A DNA stretch of 44,680 nucleotides, from the NCBI GenBank assembly GCA_944343275.1, contig CALVMH010000014.1, positions 1-44,680 on the forward strand, given 5' to 3'. Made by a program: the position numbers and the translations under genes. Positions 13,740 to 36,599 of the stretch are shown piece after piece; position 1 is the stretch's first letter; every line of letters starts with the position of its first letter. The DNA is from an uncultured Clostridia bacterium (GTDB taxonomy: Bacteria > Bacillota > Clostridia > Christensenellales > Borkfalkiaceae). The notes below the pieces were generated by a model. It worked only from the letters and a program-made list of their open reading frames with translations, was not told where the DNA came from and made no database searches.

Positions 13740-13768
13740 ATTATACATGATTGATTTGAAAAAGTCAA
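13740..13768 (-). promoter_or_regulatory. Promoter of the AraC regulator gene
   Basis: On the minus strand TTGACT (13768-13763), 17 bases and TATAAT (13745-13740) form an almost perfect promoter. The predicted start is near 13733, leaving a leader of about 20 bases before the ATG at 13712. Confidence 0.85.
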
Positions 13769-13772
13769 TCAT
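13747..13772. promoter_or_regulatory. Perfect dyad overlapping the AraC promoter, likely operator
   Basis: ATGATTGA (13747-13754) and TCAATCAT (13765-13772) are perfect inverted 8-mers separated by ten A/T-rich bases. The right arm covers the -35 element of the AraC promoter and the left arm lies in its spacer. A bound protein would therefore block that promoter, while sitting about 60 bases upstream of the divergent operon's -10. Autorepression plus activation is a natural reading, but the binding protein is inferred. Confidence 0.6.
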
Positions 13773-13829
13773 CTTTGTACTATTATACAATTTTTTTGCA
13801 TTATCATTATATTTTTTTCATAATCCCTA

Positions 13830-13838
13830 TGCTATAAT
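13830..13838 (+). promoter_or_regulatory. Extended -10 promoter of the glycan operon
   Basis: TGCTATAAT (13830-13838) is a full extended -10 element, 40 bases before the GH43 start. The position 17 bases further upstream holds TATTTT rather than a recognisable -35. A weak -35 with a strong extended -10 suits an activator-dependent promoter. Confidence 0.65.
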
Positions 13839-13878
13839 GATAGCGCAGAGAGAAAATCTTGCAACAAGGAGGAAAGAG

Positions 13879-15738
13879 GTGAACAAAACGAGACTGTTGG
13901 CAGCAACGATCGCACCCATGATGCTGGTTGCCGTTATTGCTGCCGGATGCGAAGGGGACAAGCAGTATGTCAGGATGTCGTATTACGACGGGACGACTTA
14001 CGAAGAGGGTGCCGAATACAGCATCATCAACGAAAATCTGTTCTACCGCAATACGCGTCAGGTGGACATCGCCGATCCGAGCGTCGTATACGTATCGGAT
14101 GAAGCGGATCCCGATTACGGAAGCTATTTCCTGTACGGGACGACAAGCAGCACGACGGGGTTCTTCTGCTGGAAGAGCGAAGACCTCCTCAATTGGGATG
14201 CCATAGGGTATGCGCTCAAATACGATGACTTCAAGTCCACGGAGGCAAGGTCGCTCAAACAGGACATCTGGGCGCCCGAAGTCATCTATGACGAGGAAGA
14301 GGACAAGTGGTACCTGTTTTTCAGCGCCACGCCCGATACGCCCGTCAATACGGACAGCGCCAGACCCACCATGGAGTATCAGTGCATTCCGTATGTTGCC
14401 GTGAGTGATTCGCCGCGCGGCCCGTTCAACCTCATCGACCATAAGGCGGCATACAAGACGACGGAGGGCACGCCGCTGAGCGAAGTGGGCAATCTTGACG
14501 AGAATCAGGATTGCTTCTTCCAGCGCTATATGACGTTCGATCCCTATTCGATGCATCAGCAGCTGGAAACGCTCGGCGTCTCGGAGGATGGCTGCGACCT
14601 GATCCGCGCCATCGACTTCCATCCGTATGTCGATCCCGCCACGCAGGAGAAATACCTCTACTTTGCGCTCAGCCACAACTCTTACATTTGCGGCATGAAG
14701 ATGGAGGATTGGAACACGCCCGTGTATTCGTCGCTCGTCGTTCTGACGCGCCCCGGATATTCTTCGATGACCGCGGAGGAGAAAGACCTCACCTACGAAT
14801 CGACGAACAACCATGTGAACGAGGGACCCTGGATGACGGAACACGGCGGGAAGTACTATCTCACCTTCTCCATCAACAGTTCCACGCTGCACGGATATTC
14901 CGTCTGCCAGGCGGTGGGCGATACGCCGCTCGGTCCCTTCCGCAAGCTGACGGAGGCAGAGGGCGCCGTTCTGCTGTCGGCAGACTCCTCGCGTGACGAT
15001 GTTTCGGGAACGGGGCATCACACCATCGTCACCGTCGGGGGGAAGGAATATATCCTCTATCACAGCCACAATTCCGTGGAGGCGGGCGGGTTCAGCCGTC
15101 ACCTTGCCTTCGATCCCATCGAGTGGGTCACCGTCAAGGACGGCGCCGGCAACGATCTTCCCGTCATGTATGTGAACGGTCCCACGACGTCCGTTCAGCC
15201 GCTGCCCGAATATGCGGCAGAATACCGCAACATCGCTGCGGAAGCGGAGGTGGAGGCGACGGCGCTTGCCGACGGCAGCAGCGCATCGTGGATGACGGAC
15301 GGGCTGCTTTCCGTCAACCGTTACATGAACTACGATATGGTGGAGACCTATGTGCAGGAATCCGCCTTTACGGGAAAGACGACCGTCACACTGACGTTTG
15401 ACGACTACAAGACGGTGCGCGCGCTCATGGTCTACAATTCCAAGAACATGCAGAGCGCCTTCTACGAAATCGAGCGCATCGAATTTGACTGCAAGGAGGA
15501 GGACGGTTCCGAGGTCACGCGCTTTATCGATCGGCTTGCGTTCGATTGGAAGGCGTATACCGCCGGAGACCCCGACGTCATCCGCCCTGCATCCGCGGCG
15601 TTTGCGGAATTTGCCGAGATTCGGTGCAAGACGATCCGCATCACCATTGCGCCTGCAACGGAGGAACAGATCGCGGTACACGGAATGGACGATATGCCCG
15701 AACTCTCCGTCTCCGAGATCAGAGTATTAGGGAAATAA
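13879..15738 (+). CDS. Secreted GH43-family glycosidase lipoprotein
   Basis: The 619-residue protein starts with GTG behind AAGGAGG and has a lipobox IAAGC (Cys24). The five-bladed propeller region (about 60-470) shows the GH43 landmarks: catalytic-base Asp66 in DIADPSVVY, WAPEV near 132, and NEGPWMTEHGGKYYLTFS with the likely general acid Glu315. A C-terminal beta domain (about 490-619) resembles an F5/8-type, carbohydrate-binding fold. GH43 enzymes act on arabinan, xylan or galactan side chains; in this operon arabinanase or arabinofuranosidase activity is most likely. It acts on the cell surface. An in-frame extension to 13747 would run through the promoter and is rejected. It is the first gene of the operon. 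Confidence 0.9.
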   Translation: MNKTRLLAATIAPMMLVAVIAAGCEGDKQYVRMSYYDGTTYEEGAEYSIINENLFYRNTRQVDIADPSVVYVSDEADPDYGSYFLYGTTSSTTGFFCWKSEDLLNWDAIGYALKYDDFKSTEARSLKQDIWAPEVIYDEEEDKWYLFFSATPDTPVNTDSARPTMEYQCIPYVAVSDSPRGPFNLIDHKAAYKTTEGTPLSEVGNLDENQDCFFQRYMTFDPYSMHQQLETLGVSEDGCDLIRAIDFHPYVDPATQEKYLYFALSHNSYICGMKMEDWNTPVYSSLVVLTRPGYSSMTAEEKDLTYESTNNHVNEGPWMTEHGGKYYLTFSINSSTLHGYSVCQAVGDTPLGPFRKLTEAEGAVLLSADSSRDDVSGTGHHTIVTVGGKEYILYHSHNSVEAGGFSRHLAFDPIEWVTVKDGAGNDLPVMYVNGPTTSVQPLPEYAAEYRNIAAEAEVEATALADGSSASWMTDGLLSVNRYMNYDMVETYVQESAFTGKTTVTLTFDDYKTVRALMVYNSKNMQSAFYEIERIEFDCKEEDGSEVTRFIDRLAFDWKAYTAGDPDVIRPASAAFAEFAEIRCKTIRITIAPATEEQIAVHGMDDMPELSVSEIRVLGK

Positions 15739-15751
15739 AGAGAGGGAATCA

Positions 15752-18700
15752 ATGATGAGAAACAAAAAGAACATTCGGCTACTGACTTGTTTGTGTGCCG
15801 CAACGCTGCTTACGGGCGTGGCGGGGACTGTCGCGGCATGCGCGCCGCCGATCATCGACGATCCGCCCTACACGGTGGAGAAACCGCAGGAAGACCTTCC
15901 CGCATACGATGCCGACATCAAGATGGACGGCGTGCTCAATGATGCCGCGTATGCACAGCTGCGCTGGCTGGAAAACGAATACGTCACGAATAACGTGACC
16001 GTAACCGTGCGGATGTCGGCATATTTCGGCGAAAAGGGCGTCTTCCTCCTGTTTGACGTGGACGACCCCGCCGTCTTTATCAACCCCGACCGCAACCCTT
16101 CGTGGAACAGCGGCATCGAGCTCTATCTCGCCGAGGCGGGCGTCGACCACATCGAAGGGGAGGGCTGGGAGATCGACTTCACCCCCGGAATCGATATGGT
16201 CTCCACGCGCTTGCAGCGCAACGGCGGATTTGTCGCCATGCTCACCGCCAAGGAGGATACGCCCTTCATGCGTTCCGTCGGAAAGGGCGGCGCTGTCGGC
16301 GCGGAGGGCACCGAGGGCTACACGATGGAAGCCTTCTTCCCTTACGGGTTCTTCGGGATCGACGAAGGCGGGCTGGATGCGCTTGCGCTGAACCCCGTTC
16401 TTTTGCGTGCCTACGATCTTGTGGACAACGAATATAGTCAGCGCGTCTGGCACAACTTCGGGCTAGAATGCAAAAAGGGATACAGTTTCTCCAATCCCAC
16501 CACATGGTGGCAGTTCAAGGAGGGCGGGCTGGACGCATGGCTCGTCACTTTGCAGACGGACGGCAACGGAACGCTTGACGGCAACAGCTTTGTCGTGAAC
16601 GGCGAGTCGCTCGAACTGACCGTCACGCCCGATACGGACTATTCCATCAAATCCGTCAAGTGCGGCGGTACGGACTATACCGACAAGCTGTTCATTGAAG
16701 ACGGCGCCATGAAAGTCGTCATCGACAATGTGGCGCAGGACATCACCGTTGAGGCGGAGTTCGAGCGCTTCCCCACGGAGCGCTATGCACTCACGGGCGA
16801 CATCGAATACTTCGGCGCGCCCCTTCCCGACGCGCGGTTCTCGGAACTTACCTTGCAGGCATGCTGCCGCGGCGCGTTCTTCGATGCGGACTTCCAAAAC
16901 GGGGGGGGGTACTCGGTCGACCTTCCCGCAGGAGAGTATATCCTCATTCTGACCAAGGAGGACGGCACCGTCGTCGCACAACAGACGGGCAGCCTGTCCG
17001 CTGCGGCGACCTGCGACATATCGATCGAAAAGACCCTCGATGCCGACATCCTCGAAGGCAAAGAGGACTTCACAAAGAATTTCAGCGATGCGACAGCCGC
17101 CCAGCAGCAGGGCATTCTCTACGACAACAAGGATAACGGCGAAACGTATCCTTCGCAGGTCACGTTCGAAAGCGCTTTCTATGCGCCGTCCATCGGCTCT
17201 ATCATGACGGACAACATCAAGTTCGGCATGCGCATTTATTTGAAGAATGCGGGCGGCGGCGGGGATTTTTCCGTTGCGGACGTCGTTCTCGGCAAAAAGG
17301 CGGACGGCTGGTATCTCGGTATCGGCTATGACCTCATTGCCAATGACGTCGGAACGTACAAGCTCAGCGAGGAGCAGGTCACGGCGGTGCAGGAGGGCAC
17401 GTTCAAGGTGCTCGTCATCAAGGAGGGCGTGGAACACAGGCTGTATGCTCTCAACGGCGACGACTATGAGTATGTTGCCGGCTATACGGATGACGACGAT
17501 ACGCTCGTCTCCTTTGCGACCATCGACCTCATCACCCACAAGGATACGGCGGGCAGCGGCGTCGGCGCATTCGGCATGAAGGGCACCACGGTGTATACCA
17601 ATTATGCGGACGGCATCGACGCAAGTGATATCTCCCTCATCAAGGCGCTCGTCAACGGCACCGTCCGCGTAAAGCCCGTCGTCGAGGCGGAGCATGCGCA
17701 GGTCGTCGACATGTCCGAGGATTACTCCGTCGGCGCGACGCTCACCTTCAAGGTGCAGCTTGACCGCTTTGCCGAACTGCAATCGGTCTCCGTCAACGGC
17801 ACGCCGCTGACGGCGGTAGGAGACACCTATTCCTACGTCATCCGGGCAGAGGACATCCTGAACGGCATCACCATCACGGTGGATGCCACCGCCGATGCCA
17901 TCGTGTATGCAGGCACAGATGCAACAAAAGCATTCAGCGAAGTTGAAGATGACACCATTCAGGGTACCGTATACAATTACGCAACGCATGCGAGCGCAAA
18001 GTTGCAGGAGTTTACTGTCGTCGAGAGCAAGTTCCAAGCACCGTCTTTGAGCAGCGTCACGGAAAACGGTGTGCGCTTCGGGTTGCGTTTTTACAGCAAG
18101 CAAACGGACGATCTTAGCAATACCGGTTATATCGATGTTGTCATTGCAAATGAAAACAATCAATGGTATTTGGACATCGGTGCAGACCTTGTAAATGATA
18201 AGTTGAAACCGGAGACAAAGTATGCACTCAGCTCACAACAGTTTGCAGCGGTTTGTGCAGACGGATTGCGGGTGCTGATCGTTCAGGCAGACAATGTTTA
18301 CAGGTTGTATGCCGAAGACGACGGCGGCTTTGACTTTGTTGAAGCCTTCACAGACGCTCCCGCTGACAAACCTGTCAGGACTGCTTTTGCGACGATCGAT
18401 CTTGTTACAAACCCCGCAACGGCGGCATCCCGCGGAAAAGGCGACTTCGGCGTGAAGGGCACCACGGTGTACGGCGGCTTTGACGAGACGCTCACGGATA
18501 CGGCGCTCATCCGCCTGCTCACCGAGGACGCCGACGCGCAGGTGCGGTATCCCGTCGTCACCGATGCGCCCAACGTCACCGTTGGCGGTCTTTCCGCAAG
18601 CTATCAGGCAGGTGATACGCTCACCTTCACCGTGACGCCCGGCCGCTTTGCAACGGTCACAAAGGTCACCGTCAACGGTGTGGAAGTTATGGAAAGCGCG

Positions 18701-20380
18701 GGTTCCTATTCTTACAAGCTTCCCGACGACATCACGGGCATCACCGTTCAGGTACAATCTACCGTCGATGCCATCGTGTATGCAGGCAAGGGCGATATTG
18801 TCAAGAATTTCAAAACATTGCGCGATGCGGCGCAGATCACATCGGAAAGCAGTTCTGGAAGTGTTGTGGCGGGGCAGGGGACATTGTATACCTATTCCGA
18901 CCATTCCAATATGCTTCCGACCACTTCTGTGATCGTCAGCAATTTCTATGCGTCCGCGCTTCCCGATGAGCAGAATGCCCCGAGCGGTTGCCGCTTCGGA
19001 ATGCGAATCTATACCTGTCCCAATCCGAATAACGATAACGGCAACCAAGGCTTTATCGACGTGATCGTTGCAAGGCAGAATAACAAATGGGTGCTTGATA
19101 TCGGAAACGCAGTTGCACAAAATAGTGTTACTCCTGCGACAGGTTATCCGCTCAGCGATGAACAATTCAATGCTCTTAAAACAGACGCGGGGTTGCAGAT
19201 CGCCATTGTTCAGACAAGTTTGGCGGACGGGGTACAGTTTGCACTCTATGCGGAGGATAACGGAGCATTTGAACTTGTTGAAACGTTTTCGGTTCAGGAA
19301 GGAAACAGAACGACGTACAAGTCCATCGACCTCGTTGTCAACGGCGCTGCCGCAGCCATGATGCGCAGCGGTGACGGCGACTTCGGCGTGAAGGGCACCA
19401 CGGTGTACGGCGGCTTTGACGAGACGCTCACGGATACGGCACTCATCCGCCTGCTCACCGAGGATGCCGACGCGCAGGTGCGGTATCCCGTCGTCACCGA
19501 TGCGCCCAACGTCACCGTTGGCGGTCTTTCCGCAAGCTATCAGGCAGGTGATACGCTCACCTTCACCGTGACGCCCGACCGCTTTGCAACGGTCACAAAG
19601 GTCACCGTCAACGGTGTGGAAGTTACGGAAAGCGCGGGTTCCTATTCTTACCCGCTTCCCGACGACATCACGGGCATCACCGTTCAGGTACAATCTACCG
19701 TCGATGCCATCGTGTACGCAGGCAAGGGCGATATTGTCAACAACTTCAGCGACAGCGATATGCTGGTTTCCAATGCACTTGCAACGGATAATCTGTATCA
19801 CAGTAACGGCAATTATCTGTCTCCGATGTCTGTCATCGAAAGCAATTTCTACATGCCGGAAATTGCGTCGGTTTCTGCGGAAAACGTTGCATTCGGCATG
19901 CGGGTGTATCTGACGAACACGGCTGGCGGCGGCGCCTTCACCTGCGCAGATGTCGTGATCGGCAGAAAGAGCGACGGATGGTATATGGGCACGGGCTATG
20001 ATATGCGCGGCGCCAACAAGATTTCTGCCGCTTACAAGCTCAGTGATGCACAGCTGACCGCGGCGGCATCCGGGAACGGGCTGAAAATTCTATTGGTAAA
20101 AGACGGCGTGGAACACAGACTGTATGCACAGGACGGCAACGCCTTTGAGCTGGTCGGCGTTTATACGGATGACGATGCTACGATGACATCGTATAAGTCC
20201 ATCGATTTGCTCGTGCATAACAGGCAGGGGACCGATCCTCACTTTATGCGGATCGTATCGGAAGGCAACTTCGGGATGAAGGGCACCACGGTGTACGGCA
20301 ACTTTGCCGCAACGTACACGACGGACGCGCAGCTCATTGAGCTTATCACAGGCAAACAGATCGCGGGGGCGGCGGACTAA
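15752..20380 (+). CDS. Giant modular surface lipoprotein with CBM9-like domain and four repeats
   Basis: The 1542-residue protein has a lipobox VAAC (Cys30). Residues about 45-260 resemble a CBM9-like domain (DIKMDGVLNDAAYAQ, later WNSGIELYL). A short beta repeat at about 262-340 and a carboxypeptidase-regulatory-like domain at about 342-428 follow. Four modules start near 429, 722, 1012 and 1325. Each opens with a lectin-like part containing RFGMRIY-type and WYLDIG-type strands and KGTTVY; the first three close with an Ig-like part ending DAIVYAG. The fourth lacks the Ig-like part. No catalytic motif was seen. It probably captures polysaccharide for the neighbouring GH43 and importer. It follows GH43 by 13 bases with GAGGG before two adjacent ATG codons. 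The modules are not a family I can name. Confidence 0.8.
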   Translation: MMRNKKNIRLLTCLCAATLLTGVAGTVAACAPPIIDDPPYTVEKPQEDLPAYDADIKMDGVLNDAAYAQLRWLENEYVTNNVTVTVRMSAYFGEKGVFLLFDVDDPAVFINPDRNPSWNSGIELYLAEAGVDHIEGEGWEIDFTPGIDMVSTRLQRNGGFVAMLTAKEDTPFMRSVGKGGAVGAEGTEGYTMEAFFPYGFFGIDEGGLDALALNPVLLRAYDLVDNEYSQRVWHNFGLECKKGYSFSNPTTWWQFKEGGLDAWLVTLQTDGNGTLDGNSFVVNGESLELTVTPDTDYSIKSVKCGGTDYTDKLFIEDGAMKVVIDNVAQDITVEAEFERFPTERYALTGDIEYFGAPLPDARFSELTLQACCRGAFFDADFQNGGGYSVDLPAGEYILILTKEDGTVVAQQTGSLSAAATCDISIEKTLDADILEGKEDFTKNFSDATAAQQQGILYDNKDNGETYPSQVTFESAFYAPSIGSIMTDNIKFGMRIYLKNAGGGGDFSVADVVLGKKADGWYLGIGYDLIANDVGTYKLSEEQVTAVQEGTFKVLVIKEGVEHRLYALNGDDYEYVAGYTDDDDTLVSFATIDLITHKDTAGSGVGAFGMKGTTVYTNYADGIDASDISLIKALVNGTVRVKPVVEAEHAQVVDMSEDYSVGATLTFKVQLDRFAELQSVSVNGTPLTAVGDTYSYVIRAEDILNGITITVDATADAIVYAGTDATKAFSEVEDDTIQGTVYNYATHASAKLQEFTVVESKFQAPSLSSVTENGVRFGLRFYSKQTDDLSNTGYIDVVIANENNQWYLDIGADLVNDKLKPETKYALSSQQFAAVCADGLRVLIVQADNVYRLYAEDDGGFDFVEAFTDAPADKPVRTAFATIDLVTNPATAASRGKGDFGVKGTTVYGGFDETLTDTALIRLLTEDADAQVRYPVVTDAPNVTVGGLSASYQAGDTLTFTVTPGRFATVTKVTVNGVEVMESAGSYSYKLPDDITGITVQVQSTVDAIVYAGKGDIVKNFKTLRDAAQITSESSSGSVVAGQGTLYTYSDHSNMLPTTSVIVSNFYASALPDEQNAPSGCRFGMRIYTCPNPNNDNGNQGFIDVIVARQNNKWVLDIGNAVAQNSVTPATGYPLSDEQFNALKTDAGLQIAIVQTSLADGVQFALYAEDNGAFELVETFSVQEGNRTTYKSIDLVVNGAAAAMMRSGDGDFGVKGTTVYGGFDETLTDTALIRLLTEDADAQVRYPVVTDAPNVTVGGLSASYQAGDTLTFTVTPDRFATVTKVTVNGVEVTESAGSYSYPLPDDITGITVQVQSTVDAIVYAGKGDIVNNFSDSDMLVSNALATDNLYHSNGNYLSPMSVIESNFYMPEIASVSAENVAFGMRVYLTNTAGGGAFTCADVVIGRKSDGWYMGTGYDMRGANKISAAYKLSDAQLTAAASGNGLKILLVKDGVEHRLYAQDGNAFELVGVYTDDDATMTSYKSIDLLVHNRQGTDPHFMRIVSEGNFGMKGTTVYGNFAATYTTDAQLIELITGKQIAGAAD
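16901..16909 (+). repeat. Nine-G homopolymer tract within the giant lipoprotein gene
   Basis: A run of nine G encodes three glycines at about residues 384-386. A one-base slip would truncate the protein before the four repeated modules, which makes this a candidate contingency tract. Confidence 0.9.
18440..18804 (+). repeat. Intragenic direct repeat, copy A
   Basis: The 365 bases encode the end of the lectin-like part and the whole Ig-like part of module 2, plus the first residues of module 3. Aligned by eye with 19376-19740 they differ at about seven positions, with an offset of 936 bases (312 codons). Confidence 0.95.
19376..19740 (+). repeat. Intragenic direct repeat, copy B
   Basis: This is the partner of 18440-18804. 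The differences include one Gly/Asp, one Met/Thr and one Lys/Pro replacement. The stretches between and after the copies are far more diverged. A 17-base core (AAGGGCACCACGGTGTA) recurs in all four modules at 17579, 18455, 19391 and 20279. Confidence 0.95.
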
Positions 20381-20474: not shown

Positions 20475-22361
20475 GTGGCAGAAGTGACCTTAAAAAACAT
20501 TTGTAAAGTGTACGACAGCAGGGAACGCGGACACAGGGGCGTTCTCGCCGTCAAAGATTTCACCATGGACATCCGCGACGAGGAATTCATCGTCTTTGTC
20601 GGACCGTCCGGGTGCGGAAAATCGACGACGCTCAGAATGATCGCGGGTCTGGAAGATATTTCCGGCGGCGATCTCTACATCGACGGCGTCTACGTCAACG
20701 ATGTTCCCGCCAAGGACCGGAATATCGCCATGGTGTTCCAGAACTATGCGCTCTATCCGCACATGACGGCATATCAGAACATCTCTTTCGGACTGACGTT
20801 GCAGCGCATTCGGGAACCCATCTACGAACAGAGCGAGGATGTCGCAAACGTGCTATCGGAGATCGCGGCGGCGCGGGCGCAGATGCGCGCGGAATGCAGG
20901 AGCATCGCCGCAGCGGAGAAGCAGATCGACGCGCTCGACAAAAAGAATACCGCTTATCTGAAAGCCATCGACGCCGTCCGCGAGAAGGAGCGCCGCACCA
21001 AGGACCGCGGCATCCATCTTCCGGAGGTGCAAAACGCCGTGCAGCGCCTGAGCGCCCGTGCGGAAGGTCTGCGCGCGGCGATCGAAACGAACATGCAGAC
21101 GGCGGAAGGTCTGCGCGCGGCGATCGCGTCCGGAAAAGAACGGCTGGATGAGCTGGAAGCCGACATCTGCGCCAAGCAGGAGAGCATCAAGGATCGCTGC
21201 CTTCTGCGCATTGACGACAAGAAGCTCAAAGAGCTGGAAAAACACAAGGCGTACTATTTGAAGCTGCGCGCAGGCGACAATGCCGTGCGCGAACAGGACG
21301 AGGCGCAGCTTGCAAAGCTCGAAGAAGAACTCGGTTCGCTGCTTCCCGAAGGGGAGGCTGCCGCAGTGGAGGGGGAAGGGACGGAGGACGCTCCCGCCAC
21401 CGCCGAGGAGCTGCGCATTGCGGGCTTGCGCGAACTGATCGGGCGCTACCAAGAGGAGCTGGACGTGCTTGCGCGGCGGCGGGAGAGCATCGACGAAAAT
21501 CTCGCGCGCATCGACGGCGAACGCGAATTTTACGCCGCAACGCCGCAGCCCGCCTACCGTTTCCGCCGCTATACCAAAACGGAGATCGACAGGAAGGTCA
21601 TGCGCGCCGCCGAGATCCTCGACATCAAAAAACTCCTCAAACGCAAACCGCGTGAGATGTCGGGCGGGCAGCGTCAGCGCATTGCGCTCGGACGGGCGAT
21701 CGTGCGCGAACCGAAGGTGTTCCTTCTGGACGAGCCCCTGTCCAACCTCGATGCCAAACTGCGTACCTCCATGCGCAGCGAGATCGTCAAGCTCCACAAA
21801 CAGCTCAAAACGACGTTCATCTACGTCACGCACGATCAGGTCGAAGCCATGACGATGGGCACCCGCATCGTCGTCATGAAGGACGGCGAGGTGCAGCAGA
21901 TCGACACGCCCGTCAACCTGTTCGACAATCCCGTCAACACCTTTGTTGCAGGGTTCATCGGGACTCCGCAGATGAACATGTTCCGCGTGCAGATGCGCGC
22001 CGTGGGGACCAAGGTGCAGTTCAGCTTCGGCAATGACAGCGTACTCACCTGCGAGAAAAAGAAGATGCGTCCCGTGGACGATCGCTACCTGGACGGAGAA
22101 CCGCACGACGTCGTGCTCGGCATCCGTTCGGAGAACTTCTTCCTCTCCAAGGACGGCAGCGGATTCGCCTGCACCGTCTCCGAAGTGGAACTTCTCGGCA
22201 GCGAGACCAACATCTACACGACGTTCAACGGCGCAAACATCATTCTCAAACTCAATTATCGTCCTGCGGTCGCCGAAGGCGATCCCATCGTCGTCGGGGT
22301 GGATGCGGGCAAACTGTATCTCTTCGACGCAGAGACCACAAAAACCATCTTAAAAGGATAA
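20475..22361 (+). CDS. Sugar ABC importer ATPase with a large coiled-coil insertion
   Basis: The 628-residue protein is a MalK/MsmK/UgpC-type ATPase. Walker A GPSGCGKST is at 43-51, the Q-loop in VFQNYALYPHMT near 89, signature MSGGQRQR near 395, Walker B VFLLDEPLSN near 415, the H-loop in YVTHD near 451, and a C-terminal TOBE/OB region at about 470-628. Ordinary homologues are about 370 residues. Here, after NISFGLTLQ (about 110), roughly 250 residues rich in Ala, Glu, Lys, Arg and Leu form a predicted coiled coil before YTKTEIDRKV (about 367) resumes the family sequence. The reading frame is intact and all nucleotide-binding motifs are present. The GTG at 20475 follows GGAGGAAAAG. It should energise the permeases encoded downstream. 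Confidence 0.92.
   Translation: MAEVTLKNICKVYDSRERGHRGVLAVKDFTMDIRDEEFIVFVGPSGCGKSTTLRMIAGLEDISGGDLYIDGVYVNDVPAKDRNIAMVFQNYALYPHMTAYQNISFGLTLQRIREPIYEQSEDVANVLSEIAAARAQMRAECRSIAAAEKQIDALDKKNTAYLKAIDAVREKERRTKDRGIHLPEVQNAVQRLSARAEGLRAAIETNMQTAEGLRAAIASGKERLDELEADICAKQESIKDRCLLRIDDKKLKELEKHKAYYLKLRAGDNAVREQDEAQLAKLEEELGSLLPEGEAAAVEGEGTEDAPATAEELRIAGLRELIGRYQEELDVLARRRESIDENLARIDGEREFYAATPQPAYRFRRYTKTEIDRKVMRAAEILDIKKLLKRKPREMSGGQRQRIALGRAIVREPKVFLLDEPLSNLDAKLRTSMRSEIVKLHKQLKTTFIYVTHDQVEAMTMGTRIVVMKDGEVQQIDTPVNLFDNPVNTFVAGFIGTPQMNMFRVQMRAVGTKVQFSFGNDSVLTCEKKKMRPVDDRYLDGEPHDVVLGIRSENFFLSKDGSGFACTVSEVELLGSETNIYTTFNGANIILKLNYRPAVAEGDPIVVGVDAGKLYLFDAETTKTILKG
21060..21126 (+). repeat. Short direct repeat in the coiled-coil insertion
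   Basis: Identical 25-base copies at 21060-21084 and 21102-21126 encode AEGLRAAI twice, 14 residues apart. This equals two heptads, so the unit could grow or shrink without breaking coiled-coil phase. Confidence 0.9.
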
Positions 22362-22373
22362 GGGGTGAATATC

Positions 22374-24206
22374 ATGAGGCATTTGAAAAGCAAAATTGTC
22401 GCACTTTCGCTGACCGCCGTCCTCGCCGCAGCGGGGTTGGCGGGCTGCGGAAATCCCGACGGCGCAGCGGGGAACGGGGAGCGCATCACGTTCTGGTACA
22501 CCGCCGATCAGTTCAATGCGGACCCGTATGTGGAGATCGTCAACACGTACAACGCCGGACAGGGGAAGACGGACGGCGTATATGTGAAAGCGTTGATCAA
22601 GAGCGATCAGTCTAATTCGCATATCCAATACTGTACGGGCAAGGGGAGCCAGGTCGACCTCATTGCCGTCAACGACCGTTATGCGTTCAACAACATCGCA
22701 CAGGGGTTCTATACGAATTTGCAGGACTATGTGGACGATGCGTCCACATATACCAAGAACGAGGACGGCGAAGCCTACTTCGACGTCGCCAATTATGCGG
22801 CAAACAACCTCGACCGCTACCGTTTCAACGTGGACACGCGCGAGGCGGGCGAAGGGGAGGACCTGTATGCGCTGCCCATCCTGAGCAACGCCTGCGTGCT
22901 CTATTATAACGAGACGTATTTCGAAGAGGCGGGCATCCACATCATCTCTGTCCCGGAGGACGAGCTGGACGCCTACAACACGGCGCACGGCACGACGTAT
23001 GCGCCGCGCGGCTATGCGGAATATACGGCGGCGTCGTCCCCCGAATCGGGGCTTGCAACTTCCAAAAATCTTGCAGGCGAAACGGTCGTCAAGGTGTTCA
23101 ACAACCTCATTCCCATGAGCTTTCTGGAAGTCAACACGCTTGCAAAATATTTCTCCGAAGCGTGGAATGCAAAGTCGTCTCCCTCCAAATACGGCATTCT
23201 CAATGAGTGGTGGTTCTCGCACGGCTGGGCGGTCGGCGGTGACTGCGTCAAGTATGACGAGGAGAAGGGGCAGTATGTCTTTACCCTCGGCAGCGAACAG
23301 CCCAACTATCTTGTGACGGAGGCTCTCAGCGTCAACGGTCACGACTATGCGGCGGGGGACATCCTCACCTACCGCGACGGGAAGTATCTCGCGGCACATC
23401 CCGACGCGGAACTTTCCAAGCACCTCTATGAGCTTCCCTCGCAGTACGAGCAGTTCCGCGAATTCTGCGCATGGTCGCAGGTGAAGGGCGTTGACGTCGA
23501 TGAGGAATTTGTCGGCTACGGGATCTCGCCCTCTCCCGCTACGCTCGGTCAGACGTCCAAGATCACGTACTTCACGTCGGGCGAGGTCGCCATGGTCGCC
23601 GAGGGCGCCAATGCCATGGACTCCATCGGCAATGCGCTGCGCAACAGCGATACAACGTGGAATGCGGCGCTCATGTATACCTACCGTGAATTTGAAGGGG
23701 AGGACCCCGATCCGTCCGGCACGCTTGCCGTTATCGGCAAGAGCGGCTTTGAAGGGGAACTGAGAACGCAGGACGGCACGAAGATCGTCGGCAAGCTCGG
23801 CGCTTCGAGCATCAACTTCGGATATGCGATCCCTGCAAATTCCAGGCATAAGGACGCCGCATGGAAGTTCCTGCAATATCTCACTTCCGAAGAGGCGCAG
23901 CGCGTCTTCGCCAAGCACGATGCGGGTGTTCCCTCCAACTCGACGCTTGTGACGAGCGAGGAGTTCTACAACAAAGAGAATAAGAAATGCTCCAATTACC
24001 GAGCGCTCTCCATCATGTCCGAGGTCTGCGAGATCGGCGACTGGTCATATTTCGAAAACGGTGAATGGATCACGGATTGGTCGTTGACCCTCAATGACGA
24101 CGTGCGCAACGGTGAGATGTCCCTCGCGACGTTCTTTGCGACATATGAGCCGGCGACCGACGCGCTCCTGAAAGAGTACAAATTCAAGTTGCACGGAAAA
24201 GAGTAA
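22374..24206 (+). CDS. ABC transporter family 1 solute-binding lipoprotein
   Basis: The 610-residue protein has a lipobox LAGC (Cys25), a start typical of family 1 sugar-binding proteins (ERITFWYTADQF), and a C-terminal segment FGYAIPANSRHKDAAWKFLQYLTSEEAQRVF split across residues about 480-520 as in MsmE/YtcQ-like proteins. It should deliver oligosaccharides to the two permeases. It is longer than the common 420-450 residues, with extra sequence in the middle (about 180-340). The ATG at 22374 has AGGGG eight bases upstream; a GTG at 22365 is an alternative. It follows the ATPase gene by 12 bases. Confidence 0.93.
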   Translation: MRHLKSKIVALSLTAVLAAAGLAGCGNPDGAAGNGERITFWYTADQFNADPYVEIVNTYNAGQGKTDGVYVKALIKSDQSNSHIQYCTGKGSQVDLIAVNDRYAFNNIAQGFYTNLQDYVDDASTYTKNEDGEAYFDVANYAANNLDRYRFNVDTREAGEGEDLYALPILSNACVLYYNETYFEEAGIHIISVPEDELDAYNTAHGTTYAPRGYAEYTAASSPESGLATSKNLAGETVVKVFNNLIPMSFLEVNTLAKYFSEAWNAKSSPSKYGILNEWWFSHGWAVGGDCVKYDEEKGQYVFTLGSEQPNYLVTEALSVNGHDYAAGDILTYRDGKYLAAHPDAELSKHLYELPSQYEQFREFCAWSQVKGVDVDEEFVGYGISPSPATLGQTSKITYFTSGEVAMVAEGANAMDSIGNALRNSDTTWNAALMYTYREFEGEDPDPSGTLAVIGKSGFEGELRTQDGTKIVGKLGASSINFGYAIPANSRHKDAAWKFLQYLTSEEAQRVFAKHDAGVPSNSTLVTSEEFYNKENKKCSNYRALSIMSEVCEIGDWSYFENGEWITDWSLTLNDDVRNGEMSLATFFATYEPATDALLKEYKFKLHGKE

Positions 24207-24223: not shown

Positions 24224-25177
24224 ATGGAAAAATTTGCCTCGCACGGTCTTACGCCCGATCTGCATGCCAAAAAGCGGGTGGACGGCGAAAAAATCTTTGC
24301 CTACATCTGCGTGTGCATTCCGCTCTTCGGCTTTACAATGTTCAGCGTCGTGCCGCTGCTCATATCGCTCATTTCCACGTTCACGACGATGGAATATTAC
24401 GATCTGAACACCATGACATGGAACAACTTCGAGACCTTCAAGGTCGTGCTGTCGGATGATGATTTCTGGAAGTCGCTGCTTGTCACGCTCATGCTCTCCA
24501 TGAGCCAGCTCATCAGCCTCATCGTCGCGCTGTTCATTTCCTTTCTGCTCTCCAAAAAACCGCGCGGCAGAAAAATCTTCCAGATCCTGTTCTTTATCCC
24601 GTACATCTGCAGCAGCGTCGCCACGGCATATATGTGGATGACGATGTTCGATCCCAACTACGGCATCATCAACTCCGTGCTCGTTGCCATCTTCGGGGAG
24701 AGCGCGCGCGTGAGCTGGACAGCCGACCCCGCGGCATACGTTGCGGCGATCATCATCACCACCGTCTGGCAGGCGCCCGGTTACGGCATCGTCATGTACA
24801 AGGCGGCGTTCGACGCCGTCAACCCTTCGCTGTATGAAGCAAGCGACATCGACGGCGCCTCCGCATGGAAAAAGTTCTGGCGCATCACCTTTCCGAGCAT
24901 CGCTCCCACGACCTTCTATCTGCTCATGACGGGCATCATCGCGGGATTGCAGACGTTCGACATCGCCAAGCTGTTTGCCTCGTGGTCGGCGGATTCGTGG
25001 ACGGGCACGGCGGGTCCGGACAATATCGGGCTTACGACGGTGTTCTATATTTACAGAGAGGGCACGCTGTATTATAATATTCCTGCGGCATCCGTCGCCT
25101 CGTGGGGGTTGTTCCTCGTCATTCTGACGCTCTCCCTCATCAACTATAAGTTAAGAAAGAGGTGGGTGAACGTATGA
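24224..25177 (+). CDS. ABC sugar permease, MalF/MsmF type
   Basis: The 317-residue membrane protein has about six hydrophobic helices and the permease EAA loop YEASDIDGASAWKKFWRITFP near residues 203-223, which contacts the ATPase. It forms the transport channel with the next gene product. GGGAGGGG precedes the ATG. The TGA overlaps the next ATG by four bases, so synthesis of the two permeases is coupled. Confidence 0.96.
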   Translation: MEKFASHGLTPDLHAKKRVDGEKIFAYICVCIPLFGFTMFSVVPLLISLISTFTTMEYYDLNTMTWNNFETFKVVLSDDDFWKSLLVTLMLSMSQLISLIVALFISFLLSKKPRGRKIFQILFFIPYICSSVATAYMWMTMFDPNYGIINSVLVAIFGESARVSWTADPAAYVAAIIITTVWQAPGYGIVMYKAAFDAVNPSLYEASDIDGASAWKKFWRITFPSIAPTTFYLLMTGIIAGLQTFDIAKLFASWSADSWTGTAGPDNIGLTTVFYIYREGTLYYNIPAASVASWGLFLVILTLSLINYKLRKRWVNV

Positions 25178-26124
25178 AACCTTTCAAGAGCACCGTCCAT
25201 GCAACGCTGCACAATGTCGCCGCCCGCGTGCCGACCTATGAAGAGGTGCGCGAACGCCGCGCAAGAAAGACGACGGGCATCATCGGAAAGATCGTCGTAT
25301 TTGCCATTCTTCTCGTCTATGCCGTCGCGCTCATGCTGCCGTTTTATGTGCTGTTTGTCACGAGTATCACGCCCTATGAAGAACTCATGGGGTCCATGAG
25401 CTTCATCTGGTGGCCCGAAGAGGTCACATGGGACGCCTTCGTCCCGTTTATCACAACGGACAATCTTCTGGCAAGCGAGATCGGCGTTCCCATCCTGCAC
25501 GGATTTTTGAATACGCTGTGGTCCACGCTCCTTACCACCATCGTCTCGCTCTTCGTCAGCGGGCTGGCGGCGTATTGCTATTCCAAGATCCGCTTCAAGG
25601 GGAAGGAAGTGCTGTTCATGATCGAGATCGCCACCATGATGATCCCGATGGCGACGATGACCGTCCCTTCGCTCATCTATTACGAGGCGCTCGGCTGGAC
25701 GTTCAGCTGGTTCCCCATCCTCATTCCGGGCATGTTCGGCAGCGCGACGACCATCTTCTTTTTGCGCAGCTATATGGCGTCCATTCCGAATGAGACCATC
25801 GAGGCGGCAAAGATCGATCGCTTAGGTCCCTTCCGCATCTTTTTGAGGATCGTGCTGCCGCAGGCAGTCCCTGCGTTCATCGCGCAGTTCATCTTTGCCT
25901 TTGTCGGCGGATACAACAACTATATGGGGCCGCTGCTCTATCTGTCCGACGACCCGCAGCACTACACGCTGCAGCTCGTCATCACCGAACTGCGGATCTT
26001 CTACAACCAGCCGGGGCAGGTCTGCGCAAGCTGTCTCATCGCGCTTGTACCGCTCATCATTGTCTATATCGTCTTCCAGAGATTCTTCATCGAAGGCATC
26101 TCTGTGGGCGGGGGCAAGGAGTGA
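25174..26124 (+). CDS. ABC sugar permease, MalG/MsmG type
   Basis: The 316-residue membrane protein is the partner channel subunit. It has an N-terminal cytoplasmic tail, six hydrophobic helices, and the EAA loop IEAAKIDRLGPFRIFLRIVLP around residues 210-230. The Gly usual in this loop (EAAxIDGA) is replaced by Arg-Leu. The ATG overlaps the upstream stop. The EAA loop should dock on the coiled-coil-bearing ATPase, the only ATPase encoded in the operon. Confidence 0.95.
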   Translation: MKPFKSTVHATLHNVAARVPTYEEVRERRARKTTGIIGKIVVFAILLVYAVALMLPFYVLFVTSITPYEELMGSMSFIWWPEEVTWDAFVPFITTDNLLASEIGVPILHGFLNTLWSTLLTTIVSLFVSGLAAYCYSKIRFKGKEVLFMIEIATMMIPMATMTVPSLIYYEALGWTFSWFPILIPGMFGSATTIFFLRSYMASIPNETIEAAKIDRLGPFRIFLRIVLPQAVPAFIAQFIFAFVGGYNNYMGPLLYLSDDPQHYTLQLVITELRIFYNQPGQVCASCLIALVPLIIVYIVFQRFFIEGISVGGGKE

Positions 26125-26161: not shown

Positions 26162-27334
26162 ATGCAAAACAAAGTCGTAGACAGCGAATATCAGTTCAAC
26201 TCTCCTTTTTCTGTTTCCAAGCGGGTGATGCAGTTCCTCATCGACAGCCTGCTCCTCGTGCTTGCGACCATCCTCGCCTTTCAGCTGACGGAGGTCTGTT
26301 TCGGTGCGTGGAGCACGCGCCTGCGCGGGCTGAACGCTTCCATGGAGCAATGCTCGCGGGAAATTGTCGGGCAATACACGCAGGCGCAGCTGATGCTCTA
26401 CGACGAGCAGACGCAGACTGCCGCCGAGGACCCCGTCCAGGGCGAAGCGTTTTTGTATTCGCTGGTGCTTTCCACGCTCGGCGACGGCGTTTCGGACGCC
26501 GCGCCGTATGCGGGGGAGCATATTTACGGCGACCTTGCAGAGACGGAGCGCTCCGTGCTGTATTACTACGGGACATTCAAGCCCGCGCACAGGGAGGCGT
26601 TTTCGGGCGGGGATGAAGCCTTCGGTGCGGAGTATATCCGCACGCGGTTTTTGACGGGCTGCGACAATGCCGCCAACGGCTATTTCGCGGAGGAGGGGTT
26701 CCCGCTGCTGGACGGCGACGTCGCGGCGGCGCTCGACAGGCTCATCTGTTTCGGGGAAGAAAGGGTGCAGATCGACGGGATCGTCTATCCCGCCGCGGAG
26801 ATCTATGTGGAACTGTATGAGACGTTCCATGATATTTTGCGGGAAGCGCGCAGCGAACTGTCCACGCAATATGCGCCCTGCGTGCAGCTACAAGCGGACT
26901 TTTCCGCCGCGCGGGAGCAGCTCATCGCATTTCGGATCGGCGAACTCGCGCTTGCATACGCGCTTGCGGTCTGCATCTGTTTTCTGCTCGTTCCGCTGTG
27001 CTGCAAGGGGCAGACGGCGTCGGTTTTGTTCCTGCGCGGGCGGTGTATCCACGCGTCGGGGATCCGGCTCCGGTGGTACAATCTCGTGCTGCGCGCCCTT
27101 GCGGAGTATCTGATTTGCTTTGGGAACGTCATCTTCGTCATCCTGCTCAACTACGGCAGGTATGCGTCCTATTTTCTGATGTGCGACCTGTTCGGCGGCG
27201 TGCGCTTTTACATGCTCTTTCTCGCCGCGGTCGCGCTGCTCCTCGCCTCGTTTGTCTGTTTGCTGTTTGACAGGCGCGGGCGGCGGACGCTCGCGGACCG
27301 CATGTCGCTGACGTCCGTCAGGGAACGGGAATAA
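26162..27334 (+). CDS. RDD-like membrane protein with large extracytoplasmic loop
   Basis: The 390-residue protein starts like RDD-family proteins (SVSKRVMQFLIDSLLLVL, first helix about 22-44) and ends like them (RRTLADRMSLTSV). Three more helices lie at about 257-280, 310-332 and 340-367. Between helix 1 and helix 2 there are about 210 hydrophilic residues, probably outside the cell. It lies between the permease and pgmB genes with a good AAAAGGAGAGG site. The function is unknown; association with the importer or with lipoprotein partners is a guess from position. I see no enzyme motif. Confidence 0.6.
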   Translation: MQNKVVDSEYQFNSPFSVSKRVMQFLIDSLLLVLATILAFQLTEVCFGAWSTRLRGLNASMEQCSREIVGQYTQAQLMLYDEQTQTAAEDPVQGEAFLYSLVLSTLGDGVSDAAPYAGEHIYGDLAETERSVLYYYGTFKPAHREAFSGGDEAFGAEYIRTRFLTGCDNAANGYFAEEGFPLLDGDVAAALDRLICFGEERVQIDGIVYPAAEIYVELYETFHDILREARSELSTQYAPCVQLQADFSAAREQLIAFRIGELALAYALAVCICFLLVPLCCKGQTASVLFLRGRCIHASGIRLRWYNLVLRALAEYLICFGNVIFVILLNYGRYASYFLMCDLFGGVRFYMLFLAAVALLLASFVCLLFDRRGRRTLADRMSLTSVRERE

Positions 27335-27382: not shown

Positions 27383-28027
27383 ATGCGCTATCAGGCAGTC
27401 ATTTTCGATCTGGACGGGGTGCTCGTCAGCACCGACCGTTACCATTTTCTTGCATGGAAGCAGCTCGCAGACAGGCTGGGGATCCCCTTTGATGAAGAGG
27501 TCAACCGCCGCCTGCGCGGCGTCTCCCGCATGGAGAGCCTTTCCATCGTGCTGGAACGGTCTCCCGTTTGCTATTCCGCAGAGGAGCAGGCGCGCCTTGC
27601 GGAGGAAAAAAACGAAATATACAGGGGGTTTCTGAGCCGTATGACGCCCGCGGACGTCGGAAGGGACGTGCTTTCCGCGCTGTTCGCCCTGCGCGCGGCG
27701 GGGGTGAAACTTGCCGTCGGGAGCAGTTCCGCCAATGCAAAATTCATCCTGCAAAAGATCGGGCTGGGAGAATTTTTCGACGCCGTCGTTGACGGAACGG
27801 ACATCACGCGTTCCAAACCCGATCCCGAAGTGTTCGTCAAGGCGCGGGAAAGGCTCGGGATGAACGGGCGGGATTGTCTTGTGGTGGAGGATGCCGTCGC
27901 GGGCGTGCGCGCGGCACAGGCGGGCGGCATGGACTGCGCCGCACTCGGCGATGCCGCCGAAGCGCATATCGCAACTTACGACCTCGGACAGTTTTCCGAG
28001 ATCGTGCAGATCGTCGGGAGAGACTGA
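27383..28027 (+). CDS. pgmB: Beta-phosphoglucomutase-like HAD phosphatase or mutase
   Basis: The 214-residue cytoplasmic HAD enzyme has the nucleophile motif FDLDGVLVSTD (Asp9, Asp11), the beta-phosphoglucomutase-specific segment HFLAWKQLAD followed by LRGVSRMESL, the Ser motif VGSSSAN, and KPDPEVF with VVEDAVAGVRAA. These match beta-phosphoglucomutases, which interconvert beta-glucose 1-phosphate and glucose 6-phosphate. The ATG at 27383 follows GGGAGGAG; the frame opens earlier at 27338 over a small hairpin and is not used. It ends one base before the next ATG. Its presence suggests that a phosphorolysis product, or another sugar phosphate, is handled in this pathway. Confidence 0.85.
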   Translation: MRYQAVIFDLDGVLVSTDRYHFLAWKQLADRLGIPFDEEVNRRLRGVSRMESLSIVLERSPVCYSAEEQARLAEEKNEIYRGFLSRMTPADVGRDVLSALFALRAAGVKLAVGSSSANAKFILQKIGLGEFFDAVVDGTDITRSKPDPEVFVKARERLGMNGRDCLVVEDAVAGVRAAQAGGMDCAALGDAAEAHIATYDLGQFSEIVQIVGRD

Positions 28028-28028
28028 A

Positions 28029-29792
28029 ATGATACAATTGTTACGGCGGATTTGCCTGAAAGGAAGGATGGACGAAAATGTCCGGTTCGTCATCGCGCGG
28101 CAGCTCAAAAACCGTGCGTATTGGAACAAGTTCTGCGAAGTGTTTTCCACAAAAGAGGATACCGCAGACGAGGGCTGGCGGGCGGAGTACTTCGGGAAAA
28201 TGATGCGCGGCGCGGTGTGGATATATTTATACAGCCGCGACGAGGAACTGTATGACGTCATGACCGAGGCGGTCCTCAATATGCTCCCGCGGCAGGAGGA
28301 GAACGGCAGGTTCTCTTCCTACACGCAGGAGAAGGAGTTCACGGGCTGGGACGTATGGGGCAGGAAATATCTTCTCACGGGGATGCTGCACTACTGCGAC
28401 GTTTGCCGTGACGAAGCGCTCAAAACGCGCATCGTGCAGGCGATGGAGCGGCATGTCGATTATATGATCGCACACATCGGCAGCGAAGAGGGGCGCATCG
28501 CCATCACGGCAACATCCGAATGGTGGAGCGGCGTCAATTCCTGTTCCGTTCTGGAACCCGTTGTCGAACTGTACCGCCGCACGGGGAAGGCGGAATATCT
28601 CGCCTTCGCAAAATACATCATTTCCACGGGCGGCTGTGCGGACGGCGACCTCGTTGCCCTCGCGCTTGAAGGGAAAAAACTTCCCCACGAATATCCCGTC
28701 GTCAAAGCATATGAGGTGATGTCCTTCTTCGAAGGCTTGCTCGCCTATTATGAAGTCACGGGCGAGGAACCCTATTACCGTGCGGTATGCAACTTTGCGG
28801 AAGGCGTTCAGGCGGGGGACATCACGGCGATCGGCTGCGCAGGCTGCACGCACGAATGTTTCGACAACGCCGCGCTCCGTCAGACGGAATACAGCGACGT
28901 CATCATGCAGGAGACCTGCGTCACCGTGACGTGGATGCGCCTTTTGTTCCGCCTGTACCGCCTGAGCGGGAAGGCGTGCTACATCGACCGCCTCGAATGT
29001 TCCGGATGGAACGCGCTCTACGGCAGCCTGAACACGGAGGGGAACGAGCAATACAGTTTTGAACGCCGTGCCTATCTCCCCGCGATGGCGTTCGACAGTT
29101 ACAGCCCGCTCTATATGAACAAGCGCGGGCGCGGCATCGGCGGGTTCAAGGAATTTGCAAGCGGCGGATATTTCGGCTGCTGCGCCGCCATCGGCGCCTG
29201 CGGCATTGCGCTCATGCCCATGACCGCGCTCATGCAGGACGAGGACGGCAGTCTCATCGTCAATGCCCTGTGCGACGGCGAAGCGCAAGCGGACGGGTTT
29301 TCCGTCTGCGTGAAGAGCGCCTATCCGCGCGACGCAAAGGGGACGATCACCGTCTTCTGCGAAGGAGAACGGGAACTTTGCATCCGCATCCGCCGTCCCG
29401 CGTGGTGCCCTGTCCTGACGGTGAACGGCAGACGTTTTTCAAAAGAGGATTTCTGCACGGTGCGCGGGACGTTCCGCAGCGGGGACACCATCGACGTTGC
29501 TTATGAATTATCCCTGCGGGCAGTGCGTCTGAACGGAAAGATCGCCTTTTTCTATGGACCGTTGACGCTCGCCGCCGATGCCCTGAAAACGGAGCGCGAC
29601 ATCAGGCGCCCCGTCCGTTTGGGCGGAAGGCAGCCCGTATTCCGCGTGCTGCCTCCCGCAGCGGGGGAGCTCGTCCGCATCGCGCTGAAAACGGCGGACG
29701 GGGAACTGCTTCTGACCGACTATGCGTCCTGCGGGAAACAATGGCTCAACGAAAACGCCATTCTTTCCGTCTGGTTGGACGAAGAGACATAA
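28029..29792 (+). CDS. GH127/GH146-type beta-L-arabinofuranosidase
   Basis: The 587-residue protein belongs to the DUF1680 family, retaining enzymes that use a zinc-bound cysteine as nucleophile. The expected residues are present: Glu295 and Cys297 in MQETC, and Cys384-Cys385 in GYFGCCAAIGACG, which correspond by motif to the Glu/Cys and Cys-Cys of characterised bifidobacterial enzymes. An alpha/alpha barrel covers about 1-420 and beta domains follow. With no signal peptide it acts inside the cell on imported beta-arabinosides, such as those of extensin or rhamnogalacturonan side chains. GGGAG lies 10-12 bases before the ATG. It is translationally close to pgmB. Confidence 0.9.
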   Translation: MIQLLRRICLKGRMDENVRFVIARQLKNRAYWNKFCEVFSTKEDTADEGWRAEYFGKMMRGAVWIYLYSRDEELYDVMTEAVLNMLPRQEENGRFSSYTQEKEFTGWDVWGRKYLLTGMLHYCDVCRDEALKTRIVQAMERHVDYMIAHIGSEEGRIAITATSEWWSGVNSCSVLEPVVELYRRTGKAEYLAFAKYIISTGGCADGDLVALALEGKKLPHEYPVVKAYEVMSFFEGLLAYYEVTGEEPYYRAVCNFAEGVQAGDITAIGCAGCTHECFDNAALRQTEYSDVIMQETCVTVTWMRLLFRLYRLSGKACYIDRLECSGWNALYGSLNTEGNEQYSFERRAYLPAMAFDSYSPLYMNKRGRGIGGFKEFASGGYFGCCAAIGACGIALMPMTALMQDEDGSLIVNALCDGEAQADGFSVCVKSAYPRDAKGTITVFCEGERELCIRIRRPAWCPVLTVNGRRFSKEDFCTVRGTFRSGDTIDVAYELSLRAVRLNGKIAFFYGPLTLAADALKTERDIRRPVRLGGRQPVFRVLPPAAGELVRIALKTADGELLLTDYASCGKQWLNENAILSVWLDEET

Positions 29793-36231: not shown

Positions 36232-36238
36232 GGGGACC

Positions 36239-36598
36239 ATGTCCGTGAGTGAGCAAAAAAAACTGCAAATGCAGGCAACCATGTCCGAAGTTGGACATGG
36301 TCTGTTCGGGCGGGTCTACGACTATGTAAGGCGTGTTCCCGCAGGGCGCGTCGTCACCTACGGGCAAGTGGCGGCGGCGGTCGGCGCGCCCCGCTGCGCA
36401 AGGCAGGTGGGCTGGGCGCTGCACGTCAATCCGCAGCCGGGCGTCATTCCCTGTCACCGCGTGGTCAACCGCGAGGGGCGGCTCGCGCCCGCGTTCGCCT
36501 TCGGCGGCACGGACGCGCAGGCGCACCTTTTGGAGGCGGAGGGCGTAGCCGTTCACGACGGGTACGTCGACCTCAACGCCTATCTTTGGAGAGAGTAA
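36239..36598 (+). CDS. Single-domain MGMT-family DNA alkyl-repair protein
   Basis: The 119-residue protein corresponds only to the C-terminal DNA-binding and active-site domain of O6-methylguanine-DNA methyltransferase. The PCHR motif (Cys72 in VIPCHRVV) is intact, unlike ATL proteins, which usually carry Trp at that position, so alkyl transfer is possible. Other family features are YGQVAAAVG and the Arg finger in CARQVGWAL. The GTG/ATG choice is clear: ATG at 36239 is preceded by AGGGGGACC, and it begins 7 bases after lepA. A second in-frame ATG at 36281 lies within a palindrome and would remove 14 residues. Confidence 0.88.
   Translation: MSVSEQKKLQMQATMSEVGHGLFGRVYDYVRRVPAGRVVTYGQVAAAVGAPRCARQVGWALHVNPQPGVIPCHRVVNREGRLAPAFAFGGTDAQAHLLEAEGVAVHDGYVDLNAYLWRE
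36278..36301. repeat. Perfect inverted repeat at the start of the MGMT gene
   Basis: ACCATGTCC (36278-36286) and GGACATGGT (36293-36301) are separated by GAAGTT. The same 9-mer occurs again at 36237-36245, over the start codon. Confidence 0.85.
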
Positions 36599-36599
36599 C

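Follow-up and report, generated by a model that had tools for sequence, protein, structure and literature searches.

A binding protein, two permeases and an ATPase dimer are generally taken to make up a whole type I sugar importer. Insertions between the Q-loop and the signature of an ABC ATPase are known from SMC and ABC-F proteins. In SMC and Rad50, an inserted coiled coil separates the Q-loop half from the signature half; these proteins have no permeases and no TOBE domain, and their coil is far longer than the insertion described here. ABC-F proteins are soluble ribosome factors with tandem ABC domains, and the arm of EttA is at the corresponding place of the first of these domains. This arm is described as a coiled-coil-prone protrusion of variable length that binds the L1 stalk (PMC6723617). 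The arm that we describe below resembles it in being a variable-length, coiled-coil-prone protrusion, and in EttA the protrusion binds a partner.

A MalK/UgpC-type ATPase with a long insertion

We analyzed a stretch of 44,680 nucleotides (the window) that is contig C14 of a 1.98 Mb genome (92 contigs) from an uncultured Clostridia bacterium. It contains a gene (20475..22361, + strand) for an ATPase of 628 amino acids. The gene is a single open frame from a GTG at 20475 to the stop at 22361, with GGAGG upstream of the start. Like other ATPases of the MalK/UgpC/MsmX type, the product has the motifs of the group and a TOBE/OB C-terminal region, and its operon encodes a binding protein and two permeases. 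A preliminary description of this DNA held that the nucleotide-binding motifs were intact, and we agree: the set is complete, with Walker A, Q-loop, signature, Walker B and H-loop all readable in the translation.

The family assignment is supported by profile matches. The protein scores 436.9 bits with NCBIfam UgpC (cut-off 432), and its C-terminal region scores 32.1 bits with TOBE_2 (cut-off 21). OB_MalK is just under its cut-off (26.3 against 27 bits), and the MalK equivalog gives 387 bits against a cut-off of 568. Both Pfam ABC_tran and UgpC match in two stretches, with the insertion in between. The Q-loop-to-signature distance is 308 residues, compared to 54 in ordinary members and in a paralogue from the same genome. 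We treat the long spacing as a variant feature, not as an essential criterion of MalK/UgpC membership. The paralogue is an ordinary UgpC on contig C25 (L002:1198-2910, G000 C25), without the insertion. It has a long C-terminal tail rich in Lys, Ala and Pro, which we take to be reminiscent of histone H1.

The best solved relatives are 7x0q from Clostridium thermocellum, MsmX (6yir) and AlgS (4tqu). The ATPase core aligns with these in Foldseek with target-normalised TM scores of 0.90 (7x0q_A), 0.85 (6yir) and 0.91 (4tqu_S). Known MalK-type chains, among the best 60 of 138 structure matches, have approximately 340-408 residues, in contrast to the 628 found here. Unlike ABC-F proteins, the window ATPase has a single ABC domain (one Walker A and one signature), together with permeases and TOBE. 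The permeases and TOBE also distinguish it from SMC and Rad50, and SMC_N matches residues 367-467 only, at 25.2 bits against the Pfam cut-off of 40.

The insertion comprises residues 112-361 (~250 residues; 20808..21557, + strand), in the helical subdomain between Q-loop and signature. The preliminary description had placed its limits correctly: residue 110 is the last of NISFGLTLQ and residue 366 the first of YTKTEIDRKV. We ruled out a frameshift or assembly artefact, which had been raised as a concern: nothing interrupts the frame, the architecture is found again in other genomes, and the same site is filled in many.

The insertion is predicted to form two helical hairpins

An AlphaFold2 model of the ATPase (39 sequences) had a mean pLDDT of 89.8 and four long helices in the insertion. 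Block means were 91-98 for residues 121-290 and 86-96 for residues 311-360, and were weaker (64-69) in the loop at 291-310. The insertion is thus predicted, with high confidence, to be two helical hairpins on an ordinary MalK core. The first hairpin, arm A (20835..21185, + strand; helices 121-177 and 183-237), occurs at full length only in loci of the window type, and its predicted fold is based on five sequences of that type. The second, arm B (21216..21539, + strand; helices 248-289 and 310-355), has base motifs common to the ATPases of fructan-type operons (see below). The conserved base of the insertion consists of a strand after FGL-x-x-RK, a motif like ID-x-KK-x-KEL and, at the far end, YY-x-x-TP ... 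TK-x-EID.

Residue 368 of the window ATPase aligns with residue 107 of the MalK chain of 1q12, and therefore the insertion sits in the loop just before that place. The helical subdomain has a cleft that serves as the docking site for the permease's coupling helix (PMC3150292).

The preliminary description had proposed one long coiled coil, an idea to be abandoned if structure prediction gave disorder. The model instead gives confidently predicted helices. A 3.5-residue period, averaged over homologues, was clear in the first helix (reached by 7 of 2000 shuffles), weak in the second (258/2000) and absent from the third and fourth, those of arm B (1262 and 766 of 2000). With the window sequence alone, the first helix was the only one that was suggestive (72/2000). 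The arm of the fructan-type ATPases had clear heptad periodicity in its first half (0/2000) and none in its second half (559/2000). The coiled coil therefore stands in part: there are four confident helices, and the first is periodic, but the third and fourth are not. Two hairpins fit the insertion better than one coiled coil.

The arrangement had been suggested to be undescribed, and our searches are consistent with that. The only match to a known domain was to Fib_alpha, below threshold (24.0 bits; cut-off 29.9). Sequence and Foldseek searches of structures found no solved member of the MalK-type family with such an insertion, and the insertion used as a query against solved chains gave no MalK-type match beyond its last 33 residues. 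We found no description of an insertion in a sugar-importer ATPase in the open-licence literature searched.

Insertions of many lengths occur at the same site

The preliminary description called for a search for homologues with an insertion at this position, and such homologues exist. Insertions of 18 to more than 300 residues were found at the same site in dozens of other Bacillota genomes, mostly from the gut. In loci from 201 genomes of the same family, Q-loop-to-signature distances were 54, 72, 80, 124-128, 188-191, 231-234, 296, 308 and 313. A search of named genomes with an alignment of the insertion yielded 56 loci, whereas the single insertion sequence had no match in the named-genome contigs. 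Distances in the named-genome loci with an ATPase found by motifs were 54, 72, 80, 114, 126-231, 294-296 and 366. The record titles of these loci name metagenome-assembled genomes of Clostridia, Christensenella, Oscillospiraceae, Bacilli and Erysipelotrichaceae, many from animal guts; also among the loci are some ordinary members, from Alphaproteobacteria and others. In a sample of the order, the insertion was detected in 6 of 396 genomes at E 1e-18, including its own genome. In a sample of the class (381 genomes, few of the same family), it was detected only in its own genome.

The insertion profile misses unlike insertions, for example that of genome G141. The G141 ATPase (L123:4131-6008; 626 residues) has, at this site, an insertion unlike the others, and its C-terminal region contains another one. 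Three other UgpC-like ATPases (L028, L029 and L031; frames of ~650 residues) have a C-terminal extension of ~250 residues that is of another kind.

We found that the window-type insertion did not grow from the repeat that it contains. The preliminary description had noted a duplicated 25-base unit and suggested growth by slippage. Two exact 25-nt copies are indeed present inside arm A (21060-21084 and 21102-21126, + strand), 42 nt (14 residues) apart. Four relatives align without gaps through this stretch and are of equal length there, and the DNA fetched for these four contains no copy of the 25-mer. The repeat therefore did not lengthen the protein, and growth by slippage is not supported.

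The window-type insertion is fast-evolving but under constraint. In nine of ten window-type pairs, the insertions are 37-50% identical, and in the other (L047/L051) 89%, compared to 89-100% for the two ABC parts. dN was lower than dS in the insertion in all ten pairs (e.g., 0.46 and 1.18 for the window and L049). For arm A, constraint was weak in one pair, L049/L050 (dN 1.02, dS 1.30). L049 also has ~70 extra residues at the start of arm A.

The freely varying length, and an identity far below that of the ABC parts, might indicate a surface loop open to insertions, in which a helical expansion with no specific function is tolerated and drifts fast. We consider this improbable given the constraint, the base motifs kept across types, the confidently predicted fold and the co-occurrence with companion genes described below.

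Operons encoding arm ATPases

In the window-type loci, the genes are in the order GH43, modular lipoprotein, ATPase, binding protein, two permeases, RDD-like membrane protein, HAD and GH127. In the window, all on the + strand, the ATPase gene is preceded by genes for a GH43 glycosidase (13747..15738; 663 amino acids) and the modular lipoprotein (15752..20380; 1542 amino acids). It is followed by those for a substrate-binding lipoprotein (SBP_bac_1; 22365..24206), a MalF-like and a MalG-like permease (both BPD_transp_1; 24224..25177 and 25162..26124), the RDD-like protein (26162..27334; 390 amino acids), a HAD-family hydrolase (27383..28027) and a GH127 beta-L-arabinofuranosidase (28029..29792). 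In L048, a GH3 gene comes next. An alpha-L-arabinofuranosidase (Pfam ASD1, Alpha-L-AF_C) is encoded ~11 kb further upstream in the window. Together with the gene set, this suggests, from sequence, that this arabinan-type operon targets arabinose-containing glycans.

The modular lipoprotein had been put forward as a gene that might co-occur with the insertion. This holds for the five window-type loci, including the window, but not for the fructan-type loci, where it is absent. The lipoprotein has repeated modules with only a sub-threshold Pfam match, and is 1881 residues long in L048.

The usual order in fructan-type loci is ATPase, cl4, PfkB kinase, GH32, LacI, binding protein and permease; a few loci depart from it (L054, L061 and L127). 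Here cl4 is an unnamed family of membrane proteins of ~440 residues. In scans of 24 members, no Pfam family matched more than 2 (best E 0.0092) and no NCBIfam family more than 4 (best E 0.015). An AlphaFold2 model of cl4 had a mean pLDDT of 90.7, and the PDB contained no fold relative at E 0.001 or below. The RDD-like protein of the window is narrowly above the RDD cut-off (25.5 against 24.1 bits). By hydropathy, it has one transmembrane helix, ~220 residues outside and three further transmembrane helices. By a simple hydropathy scan, the two companions have a like layout, with one transmembrane helix, a domain of 220-280 residues and two to three further transmembrane helices. Profile comparison found no kinship between them (hhalign probability 2%). 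In 26 of 27 loci, the frame directly after the ATPase is cl4; the window-type companion is 3.8 kb from the ATPase, beyond the permeases.

Genes for PfkB, HAD and LacI proteins in the operons raise the idea that the arms recruit cytoplasmic partners, such as a sugar kinase, a HAD enzyme or a regulator, to channel sugar or to signal. There is a precedent in MlaB, a small, dedicated accessory protein: it binds the ATPase domain of an ABC transporter, MlaF, whose helical subdomain it may affect (PMC7367683). However, PfkB, GH32 and LacI genes are also present in L095 and L125, whose ATPases have a 26-residue form, and therefore do not follow the arm. Recruitment of cytoplasmic partners seems to us a poor prospect.

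Companion genes follow the arm

We examined 65 loci, of which 57 had an ATPase by motif search. Those with a Q-loop-to-signature distance of at least 126 were classed as long-arm (36/57); removing three that had been fetched twice left 33 distinct loci, and L131 made 34. A companion gene was present in 32 of the 34: cl4 in 27 (counting L131 with its companion) and the RDD-like gene in five, two of which (L047 and L048) are records with identical ATPase genes. The two long-arm loci without a companion are cut by a contig end. One (L079/L124) ends 101 bases after the ATPase. The other (L049) ends 3740 bases after it, and the RDD-like frame of other window-type loci is at ~3780-3800. In contrast, neither gene was found in any of the 21 loci with a distance of 114 or less (0/21), one of which (L077) has its ATPase broken into two frames. 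The Bacilli loci L057 and L075, with a 60-residue insertion, are among those without a companion.

Genome samples gave a similar picture. Of the 201 family genomes, 16 have cl4. By coordinates, it adjoins a long-arm ATPase in 14; in G141 it is in the same locus, 3.2 kb downstream of the ATPase with the unlike insertion; and in G053 it is alone. The G053 relative (L122:9113-10381) adjoins genes for a LytTR response regulator, a GHKL kinase and GH3. The 14.7 kb read there contain no sugar ABC ATPase, and the insertion has no match in that genome. The RDD-like gene was present in exactly the two genomes of this sample with a window-type ATPase. A cl4 search of the class sample (381 genomes, few of the same family), run without a positive control, found none. 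GH32 operons with shorter forms of the ATPase (L092, L095, L125, L077, L057 and L075) have no cl4, and therefore the companion follows the arm and not the substrate.

These results bear on another explanation, in which the arms act as a clamp or scaffold that links ATPases together, either from one half of the MalK dimer to the other or from one transporter to its neighbour, and the companion is a passenger of the operon. Long helices rich in Ala, Glu, Leu and Arg, with heptads in part, would suit such helix-helix association. We think it unlikely, since it leaves unexplained both the all-or-none link to a companion among the readable loci and the absence of cl4 from the short-form GH32 operons.

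In a tree of the ATPase core (69 rows), the five window-type rows form a clade (100/100) that groups with ordinary ATPases (99/91) and not with the fructan type. Five classes of insertion length need 16 changes on this tree. The best tree does not have the long-arm ATPases as a single clade, but such a clade was not rejected (AU p 0.216, or 0.135 without L057 and L075); for the ordinary ATPases as one clade, p was 0.085. In a tree of 46 of the 69 rows, arm and companion agree in all 46, and each trait changes four times. For loci with short flanks, coordinates supplied the companion labels. Independent contrasts between arm and companion number four on the best tree and one on supported branches, which is too few for a significant result. 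L014 and L049 were left out because their contigs end too soon, as were L041 and 20 rows that are near-duplicates or have long branches. L041 has cl4 beside its ATPase. Seven of the 20 are long-armed with cl4 (L017, L019, L062, L064, L067, L074 and L076); in the remaining 13 the distance is at most 80, and there is no cl4 where the neighbourhood or genome was read.

Proposed role of the arms

We propose, with a probability of roughly 0.45, that the insertion is a docking arm for an accessory membrane subunit, RDD-like in the window and cl4 in the fructan operons. The window gene encodes the ATPase of an oligosaccharide importer of the MalK/UgpC type, and its operon is one for arabinose glycans. 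The two predicted helical hairpins stand on the helical subdomain, which receives the coupling helices of the permeases. The arms, whose direction we infer from the insertion point, would extend sideways below the membrane and keep a dedicated accessory membrane protein beside the transporter. The outside domain of the companion would thereby be joined to the importer, and might influence the ATPase cycle or be influenced by it. The preliminary description had suggested that the insertion could lock the transporter to a partner. Indirect support for this comes from the membrane protein that co-occurs with the arm, and contact between the two is what we infer from it. MlaB, which has a STAS domain, belongs to the cytoplasmic part of its complex, whereas the docking proposed here would involve an arm borne by the ATPase and a partner in the membrane.

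More speculatively, and with the odds rather against it, these ATPases might belong to a branch of importers with an extra polytopic subunit, carrying an outside domain, on the ATPase arms. Such a branch would have arisen or been re-equipped more than once, with unrelated-looking companions, through which an outside sensor could act on the ATPase directly.

The arm is recurrent and variable in length, is carried by the ATPase region that contacts the permeases, and is tied to an uncharacterised membrane protein. If docking is correct, some gut bacteria run sugar importers with an unrecognised accessory subunit, and the neighbouring enzymes point to fructans and arabinans as the substrates. Because forms of many lengths survive, arm ATPases would also be a useful case for studying how transporters acquire insertions between Q-loop and signature.

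Other features of the arm-ATPase loci

Most fructan-type arm ATPases (L013-L027, L052-L084) have a second, Lys-rich insertion before Walker A (e.g., TGKAKKNAKGEAKKRSGDF), where the window ATPase has a shorter stretch (20514-20543). In addition, lepA and the gene following it are near the arm-ATPase locus both in the window (34417-37706) and in the genome of L052 (L052:4490-7421), although the operons differ.
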